From assembly GCA_017454625.1 (NCBI GenBank), contig JAFTCP010000134.1, forward strand, positions 1 to 43,072: a stretch of DNA of 43,072 nucleotides. The letters are read 5' to 3'. Below are positions 23,629 to 33,935 of this stretch, piece after piece. How positions within the stretch are numbered: the first letter of the stretch is position 1; the number at the start of each line of letters is the position of its first letter. A program made the position numbers and the translations under genes. Below the pieces are notes generated by a model that did no database searches, had not been told where the DNA came from, and was given only the letters and a program-made list of their open reading frames with translations. The DNA comes from Synergistaceae bacterium. GTDB taxonomy: Bacteria; Synergistota; Synergistia; Synergistales; Aminobacteriaceae.

Positions 23629-24018
23629 ATGGCTAACGAGATTAGAAGTATTGATGATATTGATCCGAAGTACAGAGAAGATTATTCTGATTCAGGATTT
23701 TGGGAAAAAGTTAAAAGTGTTCTGAAGTCCGCAGGGCTTGAATTAATCTACAAGGCTATTCAACTTTATTATGTAATGAAGAAGCCCGATTGTCCGCTCT
23801 CCGTGAAAATGTCAATAATCGCGGCATTAGGCTATTTCATTTCTCCATTGGACATAATTCCTGACTTTATTCCGTTTGTCGGCTTCAGTGATGACCTCTT
23901 AGCTGTTGGAGCGGCTCTAATGATGGCAGAGAGTTATGTTGACGAAGAAGTTAAACGCCAGGCACGCGAGACAATTGATAACATTTTCGGAGAAGGAACA
24001 TCCGCAGGTCTGAATTAA
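23629..24018 (+). CDS. YkvA/DUF1232 membrane protein
   Basis: A 129-residue protein of the DUF1232 (YkvA) family. The signature is ALGYFISPLDIIPDFIPFVG followed by FSDDLLAVGAALMMAE, forming a short membrane-embedded hairpin. Function unknown; distant homology to proteins that associate with membranes. It has a clear GAAAGGAAGG site and is followed 46 bp later by the LRAT-like gene, probably cotranscribed. Confidence 0.9.
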   Translation: MANEIRSIDDIDPKYREDYSDSGFWEKVKSVLKSAGLELIYKAIQLYYVMKKPDCPLSVKMSIIAALGYFISPLDIIPDFIPFVGFSDDLLAVGAALMMAESYVDEEVKRQARETIDNIFGEGTSAGLN

Positions 24019-24064
24019 TATCTGCTATAATTCCTGAAAATTTTACGCAAAGGGGACGCGTTCA

Positions 24065-24535
24065 ATGAATAACCATGCAGAAAACGGCGATGTAATAAAA
24101 GTTAATCGCGGATTTTACAGCCATTACGGAATTTACGTTAAGGCCGATAATCACGTTATTCATTATACGGGCGCAACAGGTCCCAACGATTTCAACGGCA
24201 TCGTTCGCGAGACATCCCTTGAGGAATTTCTCAACGGTGCCGAAAATTTTATTGTCTGCAAATTTCCCGAACATCCGCAAAATAATATTATCCCTTTGAG
24301 GCAGAAAGGGGGATTATTCCGATTATGGCAGATGATGAAGCTGGCTATGCTGAAAAATTATCATCTATACACCGGCGACGAGACAATCAGACGCGCACGA
24401 AGCAAACTCGGACAAGGCGGCTATAACTTGGCATTAAACAACTGTGAACACTTCGCTGTTTGGTGCAAAACGGGCGTGAAAAATTCTTCGCAGGTTAATT
24501 TTGTCCTTGATGTCATAACTTATTTATTGAGCTGA
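24065..24535 (+). CDS. LRAT-domain (NlpC/P60-like papain fold) protein
   Basis: A 156-residue LRAT (lecithin:retinol acyltransferase/NC domain) protein. The expected catalytic residues are visible: His20 in FYSHYGIYV, His33 in VIHYTG and Cys127 in LALNNCEHFAVWC. In the known families these permuted papain-fold enzymes act on acyl groups of phospholipids or on amides, and their C-terminal hydrophobic helix (here VNFVLDVITYLL) often touches the membrane. The AAAGGGGA site fits the ATG. Its last 16 bp overlap the end of the opposing dynamin-like gene. A link to the dynamins through membrane lipids is plausible but not shown. Confidence 0.88.
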   Translation: MNNHAENGDVIKVNRGFYSHYGIYVKADNHVIHYTGATGPNDFNGIVRETSLEEFLNGAENFIVCKFPEHPQNNIIPLRQKGGLFRLWQMMKLAMLKNYHLYTGDETIRRARSKLGQGGYNLALNNCEHFAVWCKTGVKNSSQVNFVLDVITYLLS

Positions 24536-25818
24536 TTAATCAGGTGCATGAGATACTTTATCCGTCCGGCGTGTTCAATTTCATCAGGCGAGCTTAAATT
24601 AATTCCGTAAAAATTCTCAAAACTGTGCCGTAATATCTTGATGAATAAGTTTTGTGATGATGCATAGAACGAGGTCAAAGCTGACACAGGCACGATCAAA
24701 AAATTTTTCCGGCCAAGTCCTGCAAGCCTCGAAGCTATATAATCTGCCGCCCGCTCGTAAGACTTCACAACTTCGGAAGAAAACATTTCATCAATTTTAT
24801 TCAGCGCAATAATAACCTCATCAAAAGCACCGCATACAATATCAAACAGTTCAAGCTCATTGTCTGTTAAATGCACAGAATAATTCATAACGAACAAACA
24901 AGCCTCACAGCTCTTAATTGCCGACAAAGCCGCTTTTTCATGTCCTAATACTCCTGCTAAATTTGGGCCCGGAGTGTCATAAATTTTTATTCGTCTGAAA
25001 TTTTCGGGATAATCAGGAAGCGCAATTTTTATTTTACTCAGAGACTTAGATTTTTTATTCGCTTCACGGAACTTCTTGACGAGAAATTTATTCAGGTCTT
25101 CTGCACGCTTGAAAAATCTTACTTGCTTGCTCTGAACAAAACGAATTTTCCCGGATTTACTGCCCTTAGCATAAATTAACACGCACGGAGTCGGAAGCTC
25201 TGAACTCGAAGGAGAATATTCACTGCCGAGCATAGCGTTAATCAGCGTACTTTTACCGGCTTTCTTTGTTCCGATTATTGCAAGCCTGAAATTTTTTGTC
25301 CTCCTGAGATATAAAATTTCCCTGAACTCGCAGTCAGCCGAAACATAATTATCAGCGATTATAACGGGTAAATAAATTCTGAGATAAATAAACTGTTGAA
25401 GAATTTTACGCCTTAACTCAAGCAATTCATTTCTGGATAATTGGCCGGCCTTGAGAAAAACAGCATGCTGAAAAAATCTCTCATTCCTCAAAATCAAAGC
25501 CCTCAAGAGTTCAGAAATATCACGCAAATCATAATCGCTTATGCACAGCTCATTAATCAGCCTGACGGTTCCAGCGGGAAATTTTATATTGTAGGCAGCA
25601 TGAAAATCATAAAAATTCATGGGAGCTTCATTATTTGATTCCCTGTCCTGTTCACCCAGAGTTTCAATGAAGTCCCAAAGTGAATTTTTCTCGTCGATCA
25701 ACCAGCAAATTTTTTTTCTGCGTTCATACTCATAAATCGAAGCATAATAATCGCAGCTATTAAGAACTTCATCACTTAAAACTATAACTTCCGAGAATGA
25801 CGGCAGAATTTGAGGCAT
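24520..25818 (-). CDS. Dynamin-like GTPase, short form
   Basis: A 432-residue GTPase, third dynamin-like gene of the operon. Residues 1-175 are helical. The P-loop GTKKAGKS (183-190), switch region SSSELPTPCVLIYAKG, G3 motif IYDTPGPN, G4 motif ALNKIDE and G5-like VSALTSF are complete. The C-terminal stalk and paddle of the 973-residue partner are missing, so this resembles that protein cut after the GTPase domain. Its start lies 3 bp after the stop of the 226-residue gene and lacks a strong ribosome binding site, which suggests translational coupling. It may form mixed oligomers with the long dynamins or regulate them (inference). Its end overlaps the LRAT gene on the opposite strand by 16 bp. 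Confidence 0.9.
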   Translation of the reverse strand: MPQILPSFSEVIVLSDEVLNSCDYYASIYEYERRKKICWLIDEKNSLWDFIETLGEQDRESNNEAPMNFYDFHAAYNIKFPAGTVRLINELCISDYDLRDISELLRALILRNERFFQHAVFLKAGQLSRNELLELRRKILQQFIYLRIYLPVIIADNYVSADCEFREILYLRRTKNFRLAIIGTKKAGKSTLINAMLGSEYSPSSSELPTPCVLIYAKGSKSGKIRFVQSKQVRFFKRAEDLNKFLVKKFREANKKSKSLSKIKIALPDYPENFRRIKIYDTPGPNLAGVLGHEKAALSAIKSCEACLFVMNYSVHLTDNELELFDIVCGAFDEVIIALNKIDEMFSSEVVKSYERAADYIASRLAGLGRKNFLIVPVSALTSFYASSQNLFIKILRHSFENFYGINLSSPDEIEHAGRIKYLMHLINQLNK

Positions 25819-25821
25819 GAA

Positions 25822-26502
25822 TTATATTTTCTCAACGACGTTATACAGCTTGCGAAGGACATCAAGAATATTCTGAAGCTCATTGCTCGAAATTTGGCAT
25901 GATTTAGGCTGAGGACGGGAGTTTTTCGAGACTGAGACTGAGAACGGAAGGCCTTGATGCGAATTTATGAACTCGATTAACTCCAATTCTGACCTGAAAA
26001 TTTGATTTTTCTCGTCATCTTTAGCATATAAATCCGGGAAACGTTCCCCTATGCTGATAGTGCGGACAAGTTCACCTTTTTTGACAGCAGGAAGAAATGC
26101 AAGAAATTTTTCCTTCAGGCCAATTAGAAACTCTCGCAAGCCGCTAATTTTTTCGCAGGGAGTTACTGTGTAAATTATCTCATCGATGACAGCCGGAGGA
26201 CTTTCCTTTGGTTTTATCCTGTCAGTATTCTCTATAATTTTCTGCAAAAGTTCATTCTGTGTTTCCCTGTAAGTAAACGGGATATCCCCAGCCTTCAGCA
26301 TCGCCGTATAGCCGTCAAGGATTGATTTGCTCATCATAATATTACAAATCTTCTTCGTAATCTCATCGTCAAGCTCACTGTTGAAACTTGAAATGTCTTC
26401 AACGTTCCAATCAGGACGTTTAATTTCGAGCGTATCAAGAAGAATATTCATCTCGTCAAGGCATCTTTCGCGAATATTCTGCATCTCCGAAAGCGTGAAC
26501 AT
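25822..26502 (-). CDS. Unknown 226-residue protein within the dynamin operon
   Basis: I do not recognise this protein. It has no signal peptide or membrane segment. Residues 1-100 are mainly helical and acidic (MFTLSEMQNIRERCLDEM at the start). A middle part contains FLIGLKEKFLAFLPAVKKG, and the last helix (ELQNILDVLRKLYNVVEKI) could be a coiled coil. There is no nucleotide-binding motif. It is placed between the 973- and 432-residue GTPases with 17-bp and 3-bp gaps, so it is probably an adaptor or regulator of the complex. Confidence 0.8.
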   Translation of the reverse strand: MFTLSEMQNIRERCLDEMNILLDTLEIKRPDWNVEDISSFNSELDDEITKKICNIMMSKSILDGYTAMLKAGDIPFTYRETQNELLQKIIENTDRIKPKESPPAVIDEIIYTVTPCEKISGLREFLIGLKEKFLAFLPAVKKGELVRTISIGERFPDLYAKDDEKNQIFRSELELIEFINSHQGLPFSVSVSKNSRPQPKSCQISSNELQNILDVLRKLYNVVEKI

Positions 26503-26519
26503 TTTACATCACCCCTTTT

Positions 26520-29441
26520 TCAGCTGTGAAGGATTTTATACCACATATCGAAGAATGCGCCTAATTTATTATCAATCTCTCTGAGAACATCAATATCTTT
26601 CTCCAGAGCCTGTTTGTGTGCGCTTGTCTTGTCTGAAGCCGCCCTGATGTCGTCCCTGAAACTTTCAAAGAGTTCAAGATATTCCGCGTTAATCTCGTCG
26701 CATTGACGCTTTATATCCCCGTAAATCATCCTGATAACTCCTTCGGCTTCTGCTTCAATTTCATCATGAGCTTCTTCTATGACTTTACGAACTCCGGCTT
26801 TAAGTTTATACAAAATTTTCCCCTTGAAAGTCTCGACATCATAGACATCTTGAACAATTTCAAACGGGACGCGTATATTCTCCTGATATTCGACTTCAAC
26901 GTCATCATAATACTCAACTTCAATGTCTTCATCGTAATTAACAGGGACATATTCATTATATTTGACATCGACATACTCAAAATATTTTCTGCCGAAGAAT
27001 GAGCAAACGCCCTCCCAAAATCCTCGTGAGCTTCTTCGCCGTCTTTCCTTGCGAGTTCTAGTTACAGCGTCTATTCTCGTCTTCGTAACTGTCTCGGTCC
27101 GTGTCTTCTTGACTTTATCCATTCGAGTTTTAGTAACCGTCTCAGTTCTGTAATCTATTTTGTGATCAACATGATGTGAACTTTCTGCGGCATTCTGCAA
27201 AAATTCCTCATCGACTTCAACGTCAAAATTCTTATCGGTGAACGACATTTTTTCTAAACTCGGAGGGAAATCCGGGATTTTGAAACTTTTCATAAGTTCC
27301 GAAGCTGTTACGTTTCCGCCAAGTTGATTTTTGACCTCCTCAGTTCTGGCTGAAATTTTCTGTCTCGCCGTTAAAATTCCCGTTTCAACTCTTCGGCCAT
27401 AATCGTCGCGTGCTCTTTGTGCTGTGTCAGAAAGTGCCCTTGCGCTCCTCCTGTTCATTGCAATCACGGCATCGGCGATATTTTCATTAATTCCCTCAAT
27501 GCTCGGAGTAAGGCGTTTTTCCCTCATTGCTTGAATGTCATAATCATTCAATTCTGCTTCGTCAATTACAACATCACAATACTCCTCTGCTTCTCTGAGA
27601 ACTACCCGCCTGTTGTCCTTTATGGCCGCTTGAATTTCGTTCAGAGCCTTGTAAATTTGTTCATCTCCGAATTTATTGCTGATCTCGTCAATTGCGCTTC
27701 TAACGTCAGCCGTCAAGCCTTCAATTAATTTTGCGAATTTCTCCAGGTCTTCTTTGTCCTTGTCGCTCAAATCAAGCATATCAAGTATAAGCTGAGCATT
27801 CTTGAGCTGGTCAAATTGGCCTTCGCATCGGGATATTATACTGTCAACAATTTCTGTATCAACTTTTTGGCCGCCGATATATTTCAAATAGCGTTCAAAC
27901 TGGGGAATTCCGCTGAATGAAAAAATATCTGAGGCAGAAGGGTCAAAAATTCCGTGAAAGTTCTCAAGGTTCATGATTGCTTTTTCCACTTCGGTGAATT
28001 GCGTCAAGAACTTTTTCCATATTTCCGTATGAGATTTTTTGAAACGCTTGATGAAGCCTTCAATAGGTTCATGTCTATCAACTTCAATTCCAGATTTAGC
28101 GAGAATTTCAAGGACTTGTTCAAGATAAAAATTTTGCAGTGCAGAAGTCCCGAACAAGACAATATTTTTGTAGCCTATCCTGTCAAGATTGAAACGAATA
28201 TAATCAACGAGCCTGTTCACAGATTTTTCATCCGTTGAAGCATATCTTTCATCTATCCTATTTATTGCAATGAAGAGTGAATAAAATTTCTTGTTTTCCC
28301 TGAAACACGAGCTAATCTCACGCAAAAAGTTAATTTCGTCGTCAGTCTCATGCGAAGAATAATTAACAACGAATATGCAAATATCCGCTGAGCTTATGCA
28401 TTCTTCGGCTATTTTTCGGTGTTCATCGCCTGCTCCTGCGTAATTCGGGCCTGGTGTATCCCAAACTTTGAAGTCGCTGAAATCATCTGAAGGATATTTT
28501 ATCGTCATGTTTGCAAGTCCTGAGCCGGCTTTTTGTGCTTTCTTGAACTCTATGGAGATAAATTTTTTCAGCTCTTCGGGAGAATCAAAAATTTGTGTCC
28601 TTCCTTCATATTCAAGAGTTAACGGCGTGCCTGCTTTCTCAGGACTGTATTTAATGACGTTCGGCGTGGGAAGTTCTGAGCTGGTCGGAGCAAAATCACG
28701 CTTGAGAATGCTGTTGATGATTAAACTTTTTCCGGCCTTCTTTGTTCCCATCGCGGCAATCTTAATAGGACGCTTCTTAGCCTTCTCAAACTCAGCGAGC
28801 ATAGCATCAAGCAAACTTGTCATTTTCTCCGCGCGCTTTCTTGTTTCTTGTGTCAAATTTCCGCCGGAGATTATGCCGTCAATAAATTCCTTGCTGGTTA
28901 TAACCTCCTGTTTCAGCTGTAAATAATTAGCCCGAAATCTATTCTTGATTAACGATTTATTTATCTCGGATTTTTTCTTTATGTCCAAGTCTAAATTCAA
29001 GTGTATAGTCTGCTGTAAAAGCAGCGCGACCATTCTGCTGGCTTCATCTGAATTGTCATCATGATATTCAATTTCGCTGTCATCAATAACAACATGATAA
29101 TCATTAGGCTTGAGTTTTACAGCTTCGTCATATTCAAGAAGTTCAAGGAGTTCCGAAAATTTGTGTAACTTGATGATATCTTTAGCATTGCCAGTATGTA
29201 AGTAAGTTCCAAGTGAAAAATTTATCTCGTTCGCAATTCGTACGCACGTCAATAAATTTTTGTCGTAGATATTCTCAGATAATTTTTCGATTGCTTCAAA
29301 GAGTTCAAAGCCTGAAGACGGAGCAAGAAGGTAAAATTTTTCCGGGTTCGCGCTGATAATTTTTGCGGTGGTTGAAATATTTTGCCCGCTTAAATCTTCA
29401 GCTGAAATAATCGCGTGTATCTTATCTTTCAGTATATGCAT
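26520..29441 (-). CDS. Large dynamin-like GTPase with charged octapeptide-repeat hairpin
   Basis: A 973-residue bacterial dynamin-like protein. A helical N-terminal region (1-225) is followed by P-loop GTKKAGKS (232-239), switch SSELPTPNVIKY, G3 motif VWDTPGPN, G4 motif AINRIDE and G5-like GTSALQNFY. Long helical stalk segments run from about 450 to 720. Residues 766-800 hold four 8-residue basic repeats of the type TETVTKTR, and RRRRSSRGFWEGVCSFFG gives a hydrophobic tip. Residues about 820-862 hold five acidic repeats such as IEVEYYDD. The two arms probably form an opposite-charge beta-hairpin or membrane-contacting paddle. A final coiled coil ends the protein. It is paralogous to the 432-residue neighbour. 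The AAGGAGG site is 9 bases from the ATG and 19 bp after the 894-residue gene. Confidence 0.92.
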   Translation of the reverse strand: MHILKDKIHAIISAEDLSGQNISTTAKIISANPEKFYLLAPSSGFELFEAIEKLSENIYDKNLLTCVRIANEINFSLGTYLHTGNAKDIIKLHKFSELLELLEYDEAVKLKPNDYHVVIDDSEIEYHDDNSDEASRMVALLLQQTIHLNLDLDIKKKSEINKSLIKNRFRANYLQLKQEVITSKEFIDGIISGGNLTQETRKRAEKMTSLLDAMLAEFEKAKKRPIKIAAMGTKKAGKSLIINSILKRDFAPTSSELPTPNVIKYSPEKAGTPLTLEYEGRTQIFDSPEELKKFISIEFKKAQKAGSGLANMTIKYPSDDFSDFKVWDTPGPNYAGAGDEHRKIAEECISSADICIFVVNYSSHETDDEINFLREISSCFRENKKFYSLFIAINRIDERYASTDEKSVNRLVDYIRFNLDRIGYKNIVLFGTSALQNFYLEQVLEILAKSGIEVDRHEPIEGFIKRFKKSHTEIWKKFLTQFTEVEKAIMNLENFHGIFDPSASDIFSFSGIPQFERYLKYIGGQKVDTEIVDSIISRCEGQFDQLKNAQLILDMLDLSDKDKEDLEKFAKLIEGLTADVRSAIDEISNKFGDEQIYKALNEIQAAIKDNRRVVLREAEEYCDVVIDEAELNDYDIQAMREKRLTPSIEGINENIADAVIAMNRRSARALSDTAQRARDDYGRRVETGILTARQKISARTEEVKNQLGGNVTASELMKSFKIPDFPPSLEKMSFTDKNFDVEVDEEFLQNAAESSHHVDHKIDYRTETVTKTRMDKVKKTRTETVTKTRIDAVTRTRKERRRRSSRGFWEGVCSFFGRKYFEYVDVKYNEYVPVNYDEDIEVEYYDDVEVEYQENIRVPFEIVQDVYDVETFKGKILYKLKAGVRKVIEEAHDEIEAEAEGVIRMIYGDIKRQCDEINAEYLELFESFRDDIRAASDKTSAHKQALEKDIDVLREIDNKLGAFFDMWYKILHS

Positions 29442-29459
29442 TACAAAGCCTCCTTTTAG

Positions 29460-32144
29460 TTATCCCATTCCGTTCAAAATTTTCTGAATGGCAGCGGCTA
29501 TAGTTTTTCTCGTCTGATTATCCCTGTTGTCGCGTTCAATTCTTGCAAAATCCTTCTCCTTAATTTTCCGAACGTTGAGATTTATCCATTCGTCAAATTT
29601 CCGGCTTCCTTCGCCTGGAGCTGTTATGCCTTCGCGGATGAAATTTACATTTTTCACGATGACAGAGATAAACGCGCGCTCAAGGTCTATAGCTCTGATG
29701 ACTGCCTTAGCCGTCAAGTCCCGCAGAATTTTTATGTCCTCGTTGAGAATTGCAAGAATTTCATCATCGGATAAGGCTTTATGATTTGAGGCCGTTCTGT
29801 TAAATTCCTCAAGTTTAATATTAAGGCCGGATATTTCGTTTTCTGATGAGCCGAGATAATTTTTTATTGCTTCCGTGATTGCCTGCTCACGTTCATATTT
29901 CGTCAAATTCTCCCAATCTGCCTTATAGAATAAATTTTCAAGCGAGCTTTCGAGTTCTTGAGGCATCTTATTGAGTTTTACGCCTGCATTAGTGAAGAGC
30001 CCGGCCCATTCGTAAAACGGGAAAATTCTCACATTGTCGAAACGAAGCCCCTTTAAGATTATTTCGGCATTGTCAGCAAAAAATTTCTGTAAAATCTCCT
30101 CTGTCCCTGAAATTTCATGCTCCTCCGATTTTTCTTCCGTTTGTTCATGAGCTAAAATCCTTCCGAAGAACTTTAAGCCTTCATCATATACATCGGAGAT
30201 TTCGGGGTTATTTTCTCCTGCAGAAGGCATCGAGTAATATAATGCGAGCGAGAACAATTCAGGAAGAGTTCTGCGGACTTTTTCGAGCCTTTCATACTCA
30301 GCGAACGGCATTAATATTAAAGTCTCAACAAGTCCCGAAGCAAAACGTTCAATCAGGGAATTAAAGCGGCATTGTTCACCGTTTTTAATCAAGAGTTCAT
30401 CAAAGAGTTTATTCACGCTCTCTTCAAGTTCGGCCTTGCTGTCCGAGTTTTCATCCATTCCCATAGAGTTGAGAAATTCTGCGGCGAGTTGTGCGCGTAT
30501 TTCGTCCTGTTTGTCATTAACAATTACGGAGGCTGTGCTGACTAAATTTCTCATGAACAATTGATGAACTTTTTCGCGTAGTCTGCTGTTAATCGCGCTG
30601 AGCTGAACAACCCCATCCGCGTCCATGATGCCGGTGCTTTTGACATCGTTAATAATATCGCTGAAATTTTCGCTTAACGGATAAATTACCTCAATGCTGT
30701 CGATTAACTTTTTGCTGAAGGGCTTTTCTGTGCTGATTGTTTGAGTATAATCATTTACGATTTCGTTAGCTTTTCTGTCGAAGATTACGGCTTTGCTTTT
30801 GAGTTCGAGCATATATTTCCCGCCTGTTTCGAGAGAGTCCAAGACTTCGGGCGTGTAATCGGCCAAAATCCCGCGCAAAAATTCTATCGTCTCGGAGATT
30901 ACTTTTTCGGCTCTTTTCTGGAGAATTTCAAAGCGTTCATTATCGTAATAAATCTCAATAGCCTCGCGGAGTTCATTAATGCCGTCGGATATTCCGCATC
31001 TGTATAAATTTTTCAGGGCGTTAATTTTCCCTCGTTCTTTTTCGTCCGGCGACAATAACCCTAATTTCTCAAGATATGCTTTTGCTGAACCCGTGATGAC
31101 TCTTTCAGGTTGAGCAATGCTGTAGCGTTCTGCGTCATTTTTGAGGGTTAAAGTGTTGTCGCGCGCCAAATTTGAATTTCCTACGGTATCAATTTTATTG
31201 CCGAAAATAAAAGTCTTGTCGCTTAATTTTATTCCGTCAATATCCCGGACTTTTCGAAGCATATCAAGCTGCGTGCTGTTAATATTCGGTGTATGTCCTG
31301 CGTTGAGAACAAGAATTATTGCGTCAGCCTCACGGAGTTTTTCTTCGGTTTGTTTCTTGTGAAGTTCTGTAGGCGAGTCAAATCCAGGAACGTCATATAA
31401 AATTATATTGCTCATGCTTCCGAGTTCTCTTGAAGTTATAACGACCTTTTTGACGGCGTAAGGGTGAGCAGTCCTGATTAATTTTCTGTCCTCAGTGTAA
31501 CCGTTAATTCCCGTTATATAAAGCTGAAAGTCTGAGCTTCCATGTTCGCTGTCCCATGAAAATTTTTTTGCGGGCTGACCGAGTAAGCTGCTGATTATCC
31601 GGCTGCCTTCAAGTATGCTGATAATATCCTCGTCAGTTTTTCCGTTGTTGCGTTCATATAAAGCTCGTTTGGTCTCGTCTGATGAAACGGTTTTCCAGTA
31701 ATGCCTAAAATTTTCTGGTGTTAGAGTTCGGAAATCTGCCGGAGGTTCATAGCCTGCGGAGTTTAACATATCCTGAAAAATTTTTGTGAACTCTTCATTT
31801 GAATAAAACGTAATTTCTGCCTCGTTACGTTCTCCTGCTCGAAGCTCCGTTGTCGTGTAAGTGCAGCGTTCTGTATATTCCGGGAGTATCTCGGATTTGA
31901 TTAAGGCGTTCGAGAGGGTACTTTTCCCGGCTTTTTCCAGGCCGATAACTGCGACGGTGAAACTTCTGCTTCTGAGTTTATCAAGAATAACATTATTTCT
32001 CTGTCTCAAGTCATACAAGATATTACGTTCTTGAAAGCCTATAATAATTCCGTCTTTATCTATGGTAAAAATTTCACTGAAAAACTTTTCGTGCTGCTCA
32101 AGTTTCGCTATGAACGACGCTCTTTTTTCGGCCCAATTTTCCAT
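29460..32144 (-). CDS. Large dynamin-like GTPase, first gene of operon
   Basis: An 894-residue dynamin-family GTPase of a different subtype from its two neighbours. P-loop GLEKAGKS (68-75), switch RCTYTTTELRAG, G3 motif LYDVPGFDSP, G4 motif FGNKIDT and G5-like TGSAKAYL are intact. The remaining 500 residues are long alternating helices typical of a dynamin stalk. No clear transmembrane pair is seen. A frame from 32162 is open, but AAAGGAG lies 8 bases before the ATG at 32144, which is preferred. Bacterial dynamins tubulate, fuse or protect membranes and several occur as paired genes. A separate GTPase subtype beside two related ones suggests a hetero-oligomer. Confidence 0.92.
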   Translation of the reverse strand: MENWAEKRASFIAKLEQHEKFFSEIFTIDKDGIIIGFQERNILYDLRQRNNVILDKLRSRSFTVAVIGLEKAGKSTLSNALIKSEILPEYTERCTYTTTELRAGERNEAEITFYSNEEFTKIFQDMLNSAGYEPPADFRTLTPENFRHYWKTVSSDETKRALYERNNGKTDEDIISILEGSRIISSLLGQPAKKFSWDSEHGSSDFQLYITGINGYTEDRKLIRTAHPYAVKKVVITSRELGSMSNIILYDVPGFDSPTELHKKQTEEKLREADAIILVLNAGHTPNINSTQLDMLRKVRDIDGIKLSDKTFIFGNKIDTVGNSNLARDNTLTLKNDAERYSIAQPERVITGSAKAYLEKLGLLSPDEKERGKINALKNLYRCGISDGINELREAIEIYYDNERFEILQKRAEKVISETIEFLRGILADYTPEVLDSLETGGKYMLELKSKAVIFDRKANEIVNDYTQTISTEKPFSKKLIDSIEVIYPLSENFSDIINDVKSTGIMDADGVVQLSAINSRLREKVHQLFMRNLVSTASVIVNDKQDEIRAQLAAEFLNSMGMDENSDSKAELEESVNKLFDELLIKNGEQCRFNSLIERFASGLVETLILMPFAEYERLEKVRRTLPELFSLALYYSMPSAGENNPEISDVYDEGLKFFGRILAHEQTEEKSEEHEISGTEEILQKFFADNAEIILKGLRFDNVRIFPFYEWAGLFTNAGVKLNKMPQELESSLENLFYKADWENLTKYEREQAITEAIKNYLGSSENEISGLNIKLEEFNRTASNHKALSDDEILAILNEDIKILRDLTAKAVIRAIDLERAFISVIVKNVNFIREGITAPGEGSRKFDEWINLNVRKIKEKDFARIERDNRDNQTRKTIAAAIQKILNGMG

Positions 32145-32187
32145 TAATCCGGCTCCTTTCATTTTATTTCAGAGAAAATATATTTTA

Positions 32188-32216
32188 ATTGTTTAATATC
32201 ATCCAGCTGTCGTCAA
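32188..32216 (-). promoter_or_regulatory. Candidate sigma70 promoter of the dynamin operon
   Basis: On the minus strand TTGACG (32211-32216) and AACAAT (32188-32193) are spaced by 17 bp, about 45 bp upstream of the start at 32144. The -35 is good (5/6) and the -10 moderate (4/6). Read-through from the upstream genes is also possible. Confidence 0.45.
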
Positions 32217-32282
32217 TTTGGCAATTTTTATTTATGAAAATATAGTCTTGAGTGCAAAAATTTCTAAATCCGCGATTTTCTT

Positions 32283-33389
32283 TCATTCCCAGTGCGGGAA
32301 ATATAATCTAAAGTGTGTAACGTCCTTTAAGCCGTCGTCAATTCGTCCAGAAATTTCCGGCAAAAATTCCCATTCTCCTCCGTCTCGTCTGCAAATGATT
32401 AATGGCCGTCGTCCGTAATGGCTGAAAATATCCGGCAGTCTATCATCAAGCTGAGCACCAGGCAGGAAAGAATTTTTGAACAATGGCTCTGAGCCTTCGA
32501 GGTCAGAATTTCCGGGAAGGGGAGCAATAATCATCCATTGTGTCATTTTCCAGGCATTGGCCATTTCCGGAGAGGTCAAAGCGTGTTTGAGCGGCATAAT
32601 CTGAATTCCTCCGGTTATTCCTCGTTCAGCCGTCTTGATGTCGATAACTCCGGCGTGAGATGCTCTAATTCTCCCGTTCGACTGAAACTCTCCGCCGCCA
32701 AATCTCCCGATGCCAATTGCAGGATGCATGACACGAGCGACGACTTCCGGAGCTTTTTCGCCGTAAGCAATAACCCTTCCGCCCGGCCTGTTCTCAATGT
32801 CAAGCATGTAAAACTTTTGATTATTCGGAAGGCCAGTACGGATTATCAAAGTGTCATTCTCTGTAAAAATGTGTTCACCGCCGAGACTGGAAGCAGACGG
32901 ATATTTAGTGTTGTCCTGTTCAAGCCCTGAGTTTTTCACGAATAAGTCATCAAGCGCGTATTCAACTCCGTCATGTTCAACCGTAACTTTAGAGCCTACA
33001 AGTGGAGCGAATGCCCCGAAAATTCTCGTCCCGGCCGGAACGTCAACAGCGAAGTATGCCCCTCTTTCAGCCGCAGGAGCTACAGTTACCGAAGGAATTA
33101 TGCTTATTATTCTTCCTTTGTCCTCTTCAACACGTACGAGAATATGAATTGCATTGACCGCCGAAGCACAGACAGTTGAAGGCTCACACCATTTACTAGC
33201 AGTGTAAGCGGGCCAGTTAGTTTTTGCGGGATAAGCCGTAACTTGACCGAGATTGATAACTTCACCTGAGGGCAGAATTGCTTTGACGGTTTCATTTTCT
33301 CGGCAGGGAATGCGTAAAGTTATGAAGTCTTCGGCATATGAACACGAGACTTGGAATATAAGAATTAGAGTGAGCAAAAATTTCTTCAT
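32283..33389 (-). CDS. Exported protein of unknown function
   Basis: A 368-residue protein with a signal peptide (MKKFLLTLILIFQVSCSYA); the cysteine does not sit in a good lipobox. The mature part is beta-rich with many Gly, Pro and Thr, for example VPAGTRIFGAFAPLVGSKV, HPAIGIGRFGGGEFQSNGR and RASHAGVIDIKT. I do not recognise a catalytic motif or family. It lies 12 bp after the CPBP protease gene on the same strand. The ATG is preceded by GTGAGG, a modest ribosome binding site. Confidence 0.8.
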   Translation of the reverse strand: MKKFLLTLILIFQVSCSYAEDFITLRIPCRENETVKAILPSGEVINLGQVTAYPAKTNWPAYTASKWCEPSTVCASAVNAIHILVRVEEDKGRIISIIPSVTVAPAAERGAYFAVDVPAGTRIFGAFAPLVGSKVTVEHDGVEYALDDLFVKNSGLEQDNTKYPSASSLGGEHIFTENDTLIIRTGLPNNQKFYMLDIENRPGGRVIAYGEKAPEVVARVMHPAIGIGRFGGGEFQSNGRIRASHAGVIDIKTAERGITGGIQIMPLKHALTSPEMANAWKMTQWMIIAPLPGNSDLEGSEPLFKNSFLPGAQLDDRLPDIFSHYGRRPLIICRRDGGEWEFLPEISGRIDDGLKDVTHFRLYFPHWE

Positions 33390-33401
33390 GATTAATTCAC
33401 C

Positions 33402-33935
33402 TCACGGAACAGGAGCAAGCCATACAGCCCAGACGTTGCATAATGCGTGATAAATTATCGAGGGCAAAACGGAACCTCCGCGATAACGCAAAATTCCCAT
33501 GATTATTCCGGGAAAAAACGTAGCAACTCGAAGCCAGCCGGTTAATGCGATTAAATGACTGAGAGCAAATAACAAACTCGCTGACAATATCCCTAATATC
33601 ACTCCGAACTTTCTTATCGTTAAAGTCTGAAGCCATCCCCTAAAAAAAGTTTCCTCAATGAATGCCGCCGCAATCCCTCCTCCGAGATAATCCACAGCCT
33701 GCCAGAACGAAGGATGCTTTAAGCCTCTTCCTCCCCATTCAGCAGGCCAATGCAAAGATACGAACGTCAAGGGAATTAGAGTTATTGCCAGCGCGATAAT
33801 CACGTCCCGTTTGGATTGACGCGTGAGAAACCATTTCAGGCCATAAGTTCTCTCGTCTTCATGCCGAAACCTGCACCATTCATACGGAAAATACAGCATG
33901 AATGCCGCCGCAATAAGCCCAAAAATTACGCCCAT
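33402..33935 (-). CDS. CPBP-family intramembrane metalloprotease
   Basis: A 177-residue membrane protein of the CPBP (CAAX protease/bacteriocin-processing, Abi) family. Motif 1 is FIEETFFRGWL (Glu94, Glu95, Arg99). Motif 2 is the histidine in LLFALSHLIALTG, and motif 3 is SIIYHALCNVWA. These supply the metal-binding residues within the membrane. Bacterial members act in peptide maturation, immunity to bacteriocins or signalling; the target here is unknown. The start directly follows the stop of the 91-residue gene. Confidence 0.9.
   Translation of the reverse strand: MGVIFGLIAAAFMLYFPYEWCRFRHEDERTYGLKWFLTRQSKRDVIIALAITLIPLTFVSLHWPAEWGGRGLKHPSFWQAVDYLGGGIAAAFIEETFFRGWLQTLTIRKFGVILGILSASLLFALSHLIALTGWLRVATFFPGIIMGILRYRGGSVLPSIIYHALCNVWAVWLAPVP

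Follow-up and report, generated by a model that had tools for sequence, protein, structure and literature searches.

What might three dynamin-like GTPases and a small protein do when their genes lie side by side in one bacterial run? The question is raised by a 43,072-nucleotide stretch of DNA from a Synergistaceae bacterium of the rumen (GenBank assembly GCA_017454625.1, contig JAFTCP010000134.1, positions 1 to 43,072), analysed here as a whole and called the window, in which the four genes occupy positions 24520-32144 of the minus strand in the order A, B, S and C, separated by 18, 17 and 3 bp. The labels A, B, C, S and DLP (dynamin-like protein) were coined for the present analysis, in which the window's own genome is G000. 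A preliminary description of this DNA had reported three GTPases with intact motifs and a 226-residue protein in exactly this arrangement, and the open reading frames (ORFs), the Dynamin_N matches and the motifs agree with it. Comparison with related genomes establishes the four genes as a conserved unit, laid out as follows:

29460-32144, minus strand: DLP-A, 894 amino acids (aa), full-length dynamin-like GTPase that opens the run
26520-29441, minus strand: DLP-B, 973 aa, long dynamin-like GTPase with an N-terminal extension, a GTPase (G) domain at residues 228-376 and a probably helical C-terminal half
26853-27146, minus strand: hairpin of DLP-B (residues 766-863, 98 residues), a long beta-hairpin predicted from sequence and charge counts
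25822-26502, minus strand: S, 226-aa small partner protein without a transmembrane segment
24520-25818, minus strand: DLP-C, 432 aa, short B paralogue with an N-terminal extension and a G domain at residues 179-323, ending shortly after it

The four genes are kept together

We searched 43 genomes of the genus and 185 of the phylum. S is present in 3 of the 43 genus genomes, and its profile matched seven phylum genomes at an expectation value (E) of 0.01, comprising three complete sets (the own genome, G005 and G024), one remnant (G016) and three chance matches; the latter (G020, G095 and G111, E 0.001-0.005) were dropped because BLAST shows no similarity to A, B, C or S there. The order A-B-S-C is kept in all three complete copies and the flanks differ each time, the two further copies residing in two other species of the genus, known as Synergistaceae metagenome-assembled genomes (MAGs) from goat reticulum and roe deer rumen. 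The conserved co-occurrence of S with the three GTPases that the preliminary description had put forward was thereby upheld. Neither of the outcomes it had named as contrary, a scattering of the set or an S independent of dynamins, was encountered in the genomes searched, where S was not found without B and C.

Searches with the GTPases themselves gave the same carriers. Full or nearly full B was found in the three set carriers, with remnants in G016, and the matches in G034, G128 and G132 cover the G-domain region only. A was found in the same three genomes and as a full-length lone copy in G019, nine other genomes giving short G-domain matches only. In the G016 remnant (L025 6412-8725) A is missing, and the remnants of B and C both lack the stretch with the P-loop and DTPG, that of C being a single open frame of 290 aa. 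Beyond the phylum, a scan of 84,980 species with two short S peptide patterns returned only two already known loci; since it rests on two short patterns, absence outside the phylum is not established. Among plasmids, no relatives of A or B were found, and C gave nine distant G-domain matches.

Architecture of the GTPases and of S

The Pfam Dynamin_N family exceeds its cut-off in all three GTPases (E 2.3e-16 for A, 5e-15 for B and 1.6e-17 for C). Each has the P-loop, DxPG and N/TKxD elements that define a dynamin-superfamily G domain, read as GLEKAGKS, DVPG and NKID in A, GTKKAGKS, DTPG and NRID in B, and GTKKAGKS, DTPG and NKID in C, and these motifs are kept in the relatives that were read. 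B and C have GTKKAGKS and SSELPTP in common, are 37% identical over 220 G-domain residues and form one clade with support of 100/100 in G-domain trees, by which measure they are sister paralogues. A is a subtype distinct from both, its G domain matching the structure entry 5owv (E 6.1e-8), which we take to be Cj-DLP1 of C. jejuni, and SynDLP (Slr0869; E 2.8e-4). The earlier division of the three into two paralogues and one distinct subtype is thus borne out.

The three proteins differ in what follows the G domain. Counted from the start of the P-loop, about 250 residues remain in C, compared with 742 in B and 827 in A, so that A and B have long C-terminal halves and C has none; because C ends soon after its G domain, the label 'stalkless' given to the truncated member in the preliminary description fits it, though C also carries an N-terminal extension of 170 residues. 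Profile comparison relates this extension weakly to the one in B (hhalign, 109 columns, E 8e-5).

Residues 766-863 of B are predicted to form a beta-hairpin, of which arm 1 is basic (14 K/R, 5 D/E), arm 2 acidic (4 K/R, 14 D/E) and the tip aromatic (GFWEGVCSFFG). The segment measures 98 residues in window B, 50 in the B of G024 and 68 in a similar one of a long DLP from Treponema. A 24-bp tandem repeat (2.0 copies, 26886-26932) lies within arm 2, and duplication of such a repeat may have lengthened the hairpin of window B. The AlphaFold model of B, with a mean predicted local distance difference test (pLDDT) score of 44.9, was judged too poor for a fold search, as was that of S (mean pLDDT 55.5).

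S matched no family at cut-off. A relationship of S to the plasmid small proteins described below, to RdcB or to parts of A, B or C was considered but found no support (hhalign E 0.047-0.56).

A sequence scan of the four window proteins revealed no transmembrane-like window in A, B, C or S, a result that would also suit a signalling scaffold, in which the DLPs act as soluble switches reading the GTP level and S relays their state to a partner enzyme without any membrane remodelling. The precedent is RdcA of E. coli, a soluble cytoplasmic DLP that works alongside RdcB, a small protein encoded in its own operon, and serves to activate a diguanylate cyclase (PMC6510439). We consider such a role unlikely here, because profile comparison by hhalign detected no likeness to RdcA in the C-terminal half of B and none to RdcB in S (E 0.13 and 0.5), and no GGDEF or other signalling gene lies beside the set.

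The set is an accessory insertion at a variable site

Three further features delimit the run:

32145-32282, minus strand: upstream region with a ribosome site and weak promoter-like matches
24065-24535, plus strand: LRAT-domain gene, a boundary of the insertion site outside the set, with matches in 33 of the 43 genomes of the genus
32283-33389, minus strand: 368-aa gene without a Pfam match, the other boundary, also outside the set, with matches in 40 of the 43 genomes of the genus

The ATG of DLP-A at 32144 has AAAGGAG immediately upstream, indicating that 32144 is the right end point of the run; the alternative ATG listed at 32162 is disfavoured as it lies upstream of the ribosome site. The promoter-like matches, for example TTGACG-17-AACAAT at 32216-32188 with 9 of 12 consensus positions, are consensus matches only, and a scan of 24000-33500 gave 32 of them against 19 expected. 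The GC content is 40.1% in the run and about 44% in both flanks.

The LRAT and 368-aa genes lie on one contig within 8 kb of each other in 12 of the 43 genus genomes, one or the other being missing or on a separate contig in the remainder. Comparison of these sites (window 24535-32283 and loci L090-L100) showed that the site is empty in five relatives (G002, G011, G014, G038 and G040), where the two genes are convergent and their matches end 8-54 bp apart, and holds other cargo in six, with a gap of 0.8-1.1 kb in five of them. The cargo is a WYL regulator in G025 and G032 (Pfam) and in G015 (by eye), a glycosyltransferase in G041, an ORF without a Pfam match in G001, and, in G016, a 5.5-kb stretch that carries vWA, kinase and PP2C genes. 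Since the boundary genes adjoin directly in five relatives and flank other cargo in six, the DLP set is an accessory insertion at a variable site. For G024 an empty site is undefined, because its neighbour is absent within 1.5 kb beside the shared gene in the 19 other loci examined. The LRAT gene was also considered as a member of the system and rejected, as it is found in 33 genus genomes, mostly without the set.

Across copies, identity is 59-71% for A (58.7 and 62.6% between window A and its two relatives), 53.2% for B (window against G024), 47-57% for C and 34-41% for S (about 34-35% between window S and its relatives); by comparison, a conserved protein encoded beside the G024 copy is 73% identical to its counterpart in the own genome. 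This fall from A through B and C to S, set against that neighbour, is as expected if S is an adaptor or sensor under change. Divergence among the copies is roughly similar to, or greater than, that of a conserved gene, so that recent transfer is not shown; the same divergence could be read as that of a vertically inherited housekeeping set for membrane maintenance, devoid of any conflict role and lost in most species. We regard this as very unlikely, given the presence of the set in 3 of 43 genomes, its different flanks, the variable insertion site and the decayed copy.

A possible membrane machine

We tentatively favour the explanation that the four genes make up an accessory unit encoding one hetero-oligomeric membrane dynamin machine that would probably protect against stress or phages, much as the preliminary description had proposed, a reading that is possible rather than assured. 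It is favoured by the kept gene order, the different flanks, the patchy presence, the intact G motifs and the variable site, together with precedents from other bacteria: bacterial DLPs mostly come in pairs, the two Cj-DLPs acting as a hetero-oligomer that tethers membrane (PMC6104087), and DynA of B. subtilis delays phage lysis (PMC8844932). In such a machine B and C would pair through their G domains, C serving as a stalkless cap or as a GTPase-activating half, and B would touch lipid via its aromatic-tipped hairpin. A would be a second membrane-remodelling DLP, and S a rapidly diverging adaptor that links B to C or a sensor of the trigger. Most likely the assembly would seal, tether or cluster at damaged cell membrane, for instance after phage damage, and thus delay lysis, as reported for DynA.

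Several observations weigh against this explanation. The intact lone A of G019 (L133 6910-9567), which lies outside any DLP run between flavoprotein and epimerase genes and 12 bp before the latter, indicates that A can stand alone, and a frameshift, either genuine or an error of the MAG, divides B of G005 in two. The structure models of S and B support no contact. The window is otherwise housekeeping in content (DNA gyrase A, peptidyl-prolyl isomerase, aldolase and others), so its neighbourhood is not a defence island, a location that the preliminary description had proposed to check; what does vary is the site itself. Nor does a defence gene adjoin the set: PADLOC gave nothing for the neighbouring DUF1232 and LRAT genes and a single match among 10 further neighbours, a WYL-type (WCX) one about 9 kb away. 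Its LeoA and LeoBC profiles gave partial, weak matches to the set, mainly in the G domain (E 2.3e-5 to 1.8e-12), and neither profile was matched over its full length. No close relatives were found among phages (searched with B only) or viral contigs (searched with A, B and C). Finally, RdcA/RdcB sets a precedent for a DLP that serves, along with its small partner, in signalling instead (PMC6510439).

Other runs of DLP genes and a parallel set on plasmids

Whether three DLP genes in a row are exceptional was addressed by searching all 43 genomes of the genus with Dynamin_N and reading seven further loci. Such runs occur in 8 of the 43, in at least three kinds, and again on a Lysinibacillus plasmid, and the LeoABC report describes another trio (PMC4159319); the earlier impression that three DLPs per operon are unusual does not hold. 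The window kind is found in G000, G005 and G024, and a third kind in G008. The second, which we call type-2, comprises HTH_17 (divergently oriented) and SHOCT genes, three DLP genes and a gene for a protein of 634-823 aa; its third DLP is short (412-418 aa) and has a longer one as its sister. It is present in four genomes (L135, L136, L137 and L138), namely G029, G018 and G039, the last two with the middle gene split, and G009; the HTH_17 gene of G029 points in the same direction as the run, and the G009 and G039 copies end at contig ends, so that HTH_17 and SHOCT are unseen in G039. On another contig of the own genome (C171, L015 2954-13440), a radical SAM gene, a 283-306 aa protein, a HerA-like ATPase and two DLPs stand in a row.

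Following a distant match of C, we reached a parallel set on plasmids of Treponema, Lactococcus and E. coli (loci L042/L047, L043/L048 and L045), composed of a short DLP, a long DLP, a small protein, a HerA/DUF87 ATPase and an HNH nuclease. Lactococcus has two small proteins, Treponema and E. coli add a SUKH (SMI1/KNR4) gene, and a WYL gene lies upstream in Treponema and Lactococcus; the E. coli copy was found in 1 of 5,426 E. coli genomes. The same HerA-type set is present in the genus genome G034 (L139 4580-12897), whose B shares 43% identity with the Lactococcus protein across 776 residues, and the long DLP of G034 recurs in one more of the 185 phylum genomes. The DLP-HerA-HNH-SUKH set appears to be a conflict or defence system that has yet to be described. 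Members of the HerA ATPase family also occur with HNH and SUKH genes, and without dynamins, in Exiguobacterium (L147 6110-10036); on a Ruminococcus albus plasmid (L146 6932-9934) their companions are other unknown genes. These occurrences suggest an exchangeable front end.

These sets invite the proposal that B, C and S of the window are the front end of a conflict system, a sensor that elsewhere triggers the HerA ATPase and HNH nuclease and here acts via A. The parallel sets on the three plasmids and in G034 argue for it, as does the occurrence of HerA-HNH-SUKH without DLPs in Exiguobacterium. The phylogeny argues the other way, since the approximately unbiased (AU) test rejects a single clade of all C (p-AU 1.4e-6) and of all B (p-AU 8.3e-6), so that, barring gene conversion of the G domains, window B and C are not orthologous to plasmid B and C respectively and the B/C pairs are separate duplications. 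The S proteins, moreover, are not detectably related, and no HerA/DUF87 ATPase or HNH nuclease lies in or beside the window run. On balance this proposal appears rather improbable.

In a larger tree, plasmid-type B and C share a clade (96/93) with unresolved inner order, and T2a/T2c (90/88) and T3b/T3c (100/100) are sisters. The simplest reading of these trees is that several lineages have each gone through a local duplication and a subsequent truncation; the same tree would result from gene conversion between G domains. It is conceivable, if somewhat doubtful, that this reflects a recurrent device, arising when a long DLP gene duplicates at its own locus, one of the two copies is stripped of its stalk to serve as a short GTPase partner and a small adaptor joins them. 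The window set, the plasmid HerA-nuclease set and the type-2 run would be its lineages, and its product would be a membrane-damage sensor with a swappable output, either a further DLP or an ATPase with a nuclease.

Comparison with known systems

The literature searched, with most subscription papers outside reach, contained no account of the A-B-S-C set or of the DLP-HerA-HNH set. Eleos consists of LeoA and LeoBC. Together with LeoABC of enterotoxigenic E. coli it resembles the window set in having adjacent dynamin genes in an accessory location, and in the weak PADLOC profile matches. The set could accordingly be imagined as an aid to vesicle release or secretion, because LeoABC, which influences the release of vesicles, is likewise an island-borne row of three dynamin genes (PMC4159319). 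We find this quite improbable: the profile matches are partial, and LeoC and LeoB are the two halves of one split DLP, whereas the window has three complete G domains, a distinct, predicted long hairpin in B and an unrelated S.

RdcA/RdcB of E. coli (YjdA/YjcZ, CrfC) likewise joins a DLP gene and that of a small partner in a single operon and has a P-loop, GTMKAGKS, close to the GTKKAGKS of B and C, but it comprises two genes as opposed to four. The heterotypic or fused DLP pairs represented by Cj-DLP1/2 of C. jejuni, SynDLP and DynA also resemble the window set, with A matching both 5owv and SynDLP in the G domain, yet they lack a third, truncated GTPase and an S.

The plasmid DLP-HerA-HNH set parallels the window in the sizes and neighbourhood of its short DLP, long DLP and small protein, and the hairpin of the Treponema long DLP is similar. 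Homology between the C-terminal half of B and the plasmid B proteins was nevertheless not supported by profile comparison, despite this look-alike hairpin. The plasmid set further differs in its separate B/C duplication, in its order (C-B-S rather than B-S-C), in having no A, in its extra ATPase and nuclease, and in an unrelated S with a C-terminal hydrophobic helix in four of the five proteins scanned. In the type-2 run, too, three DLP genes adjoin and a short DLP is sister to a longer one, but these belong to other DLP families and stand among other partner genes.

Bacterial dynamins are known mostly as pairs. A set that joins a long DLP, a truncated paralogue and a small partner, with parallels on plasmids of three phyla, offers a comparative handle on how heterotypic dynamin machines assemble and on whether such machines sense membrane damage in bacterial conflicts.

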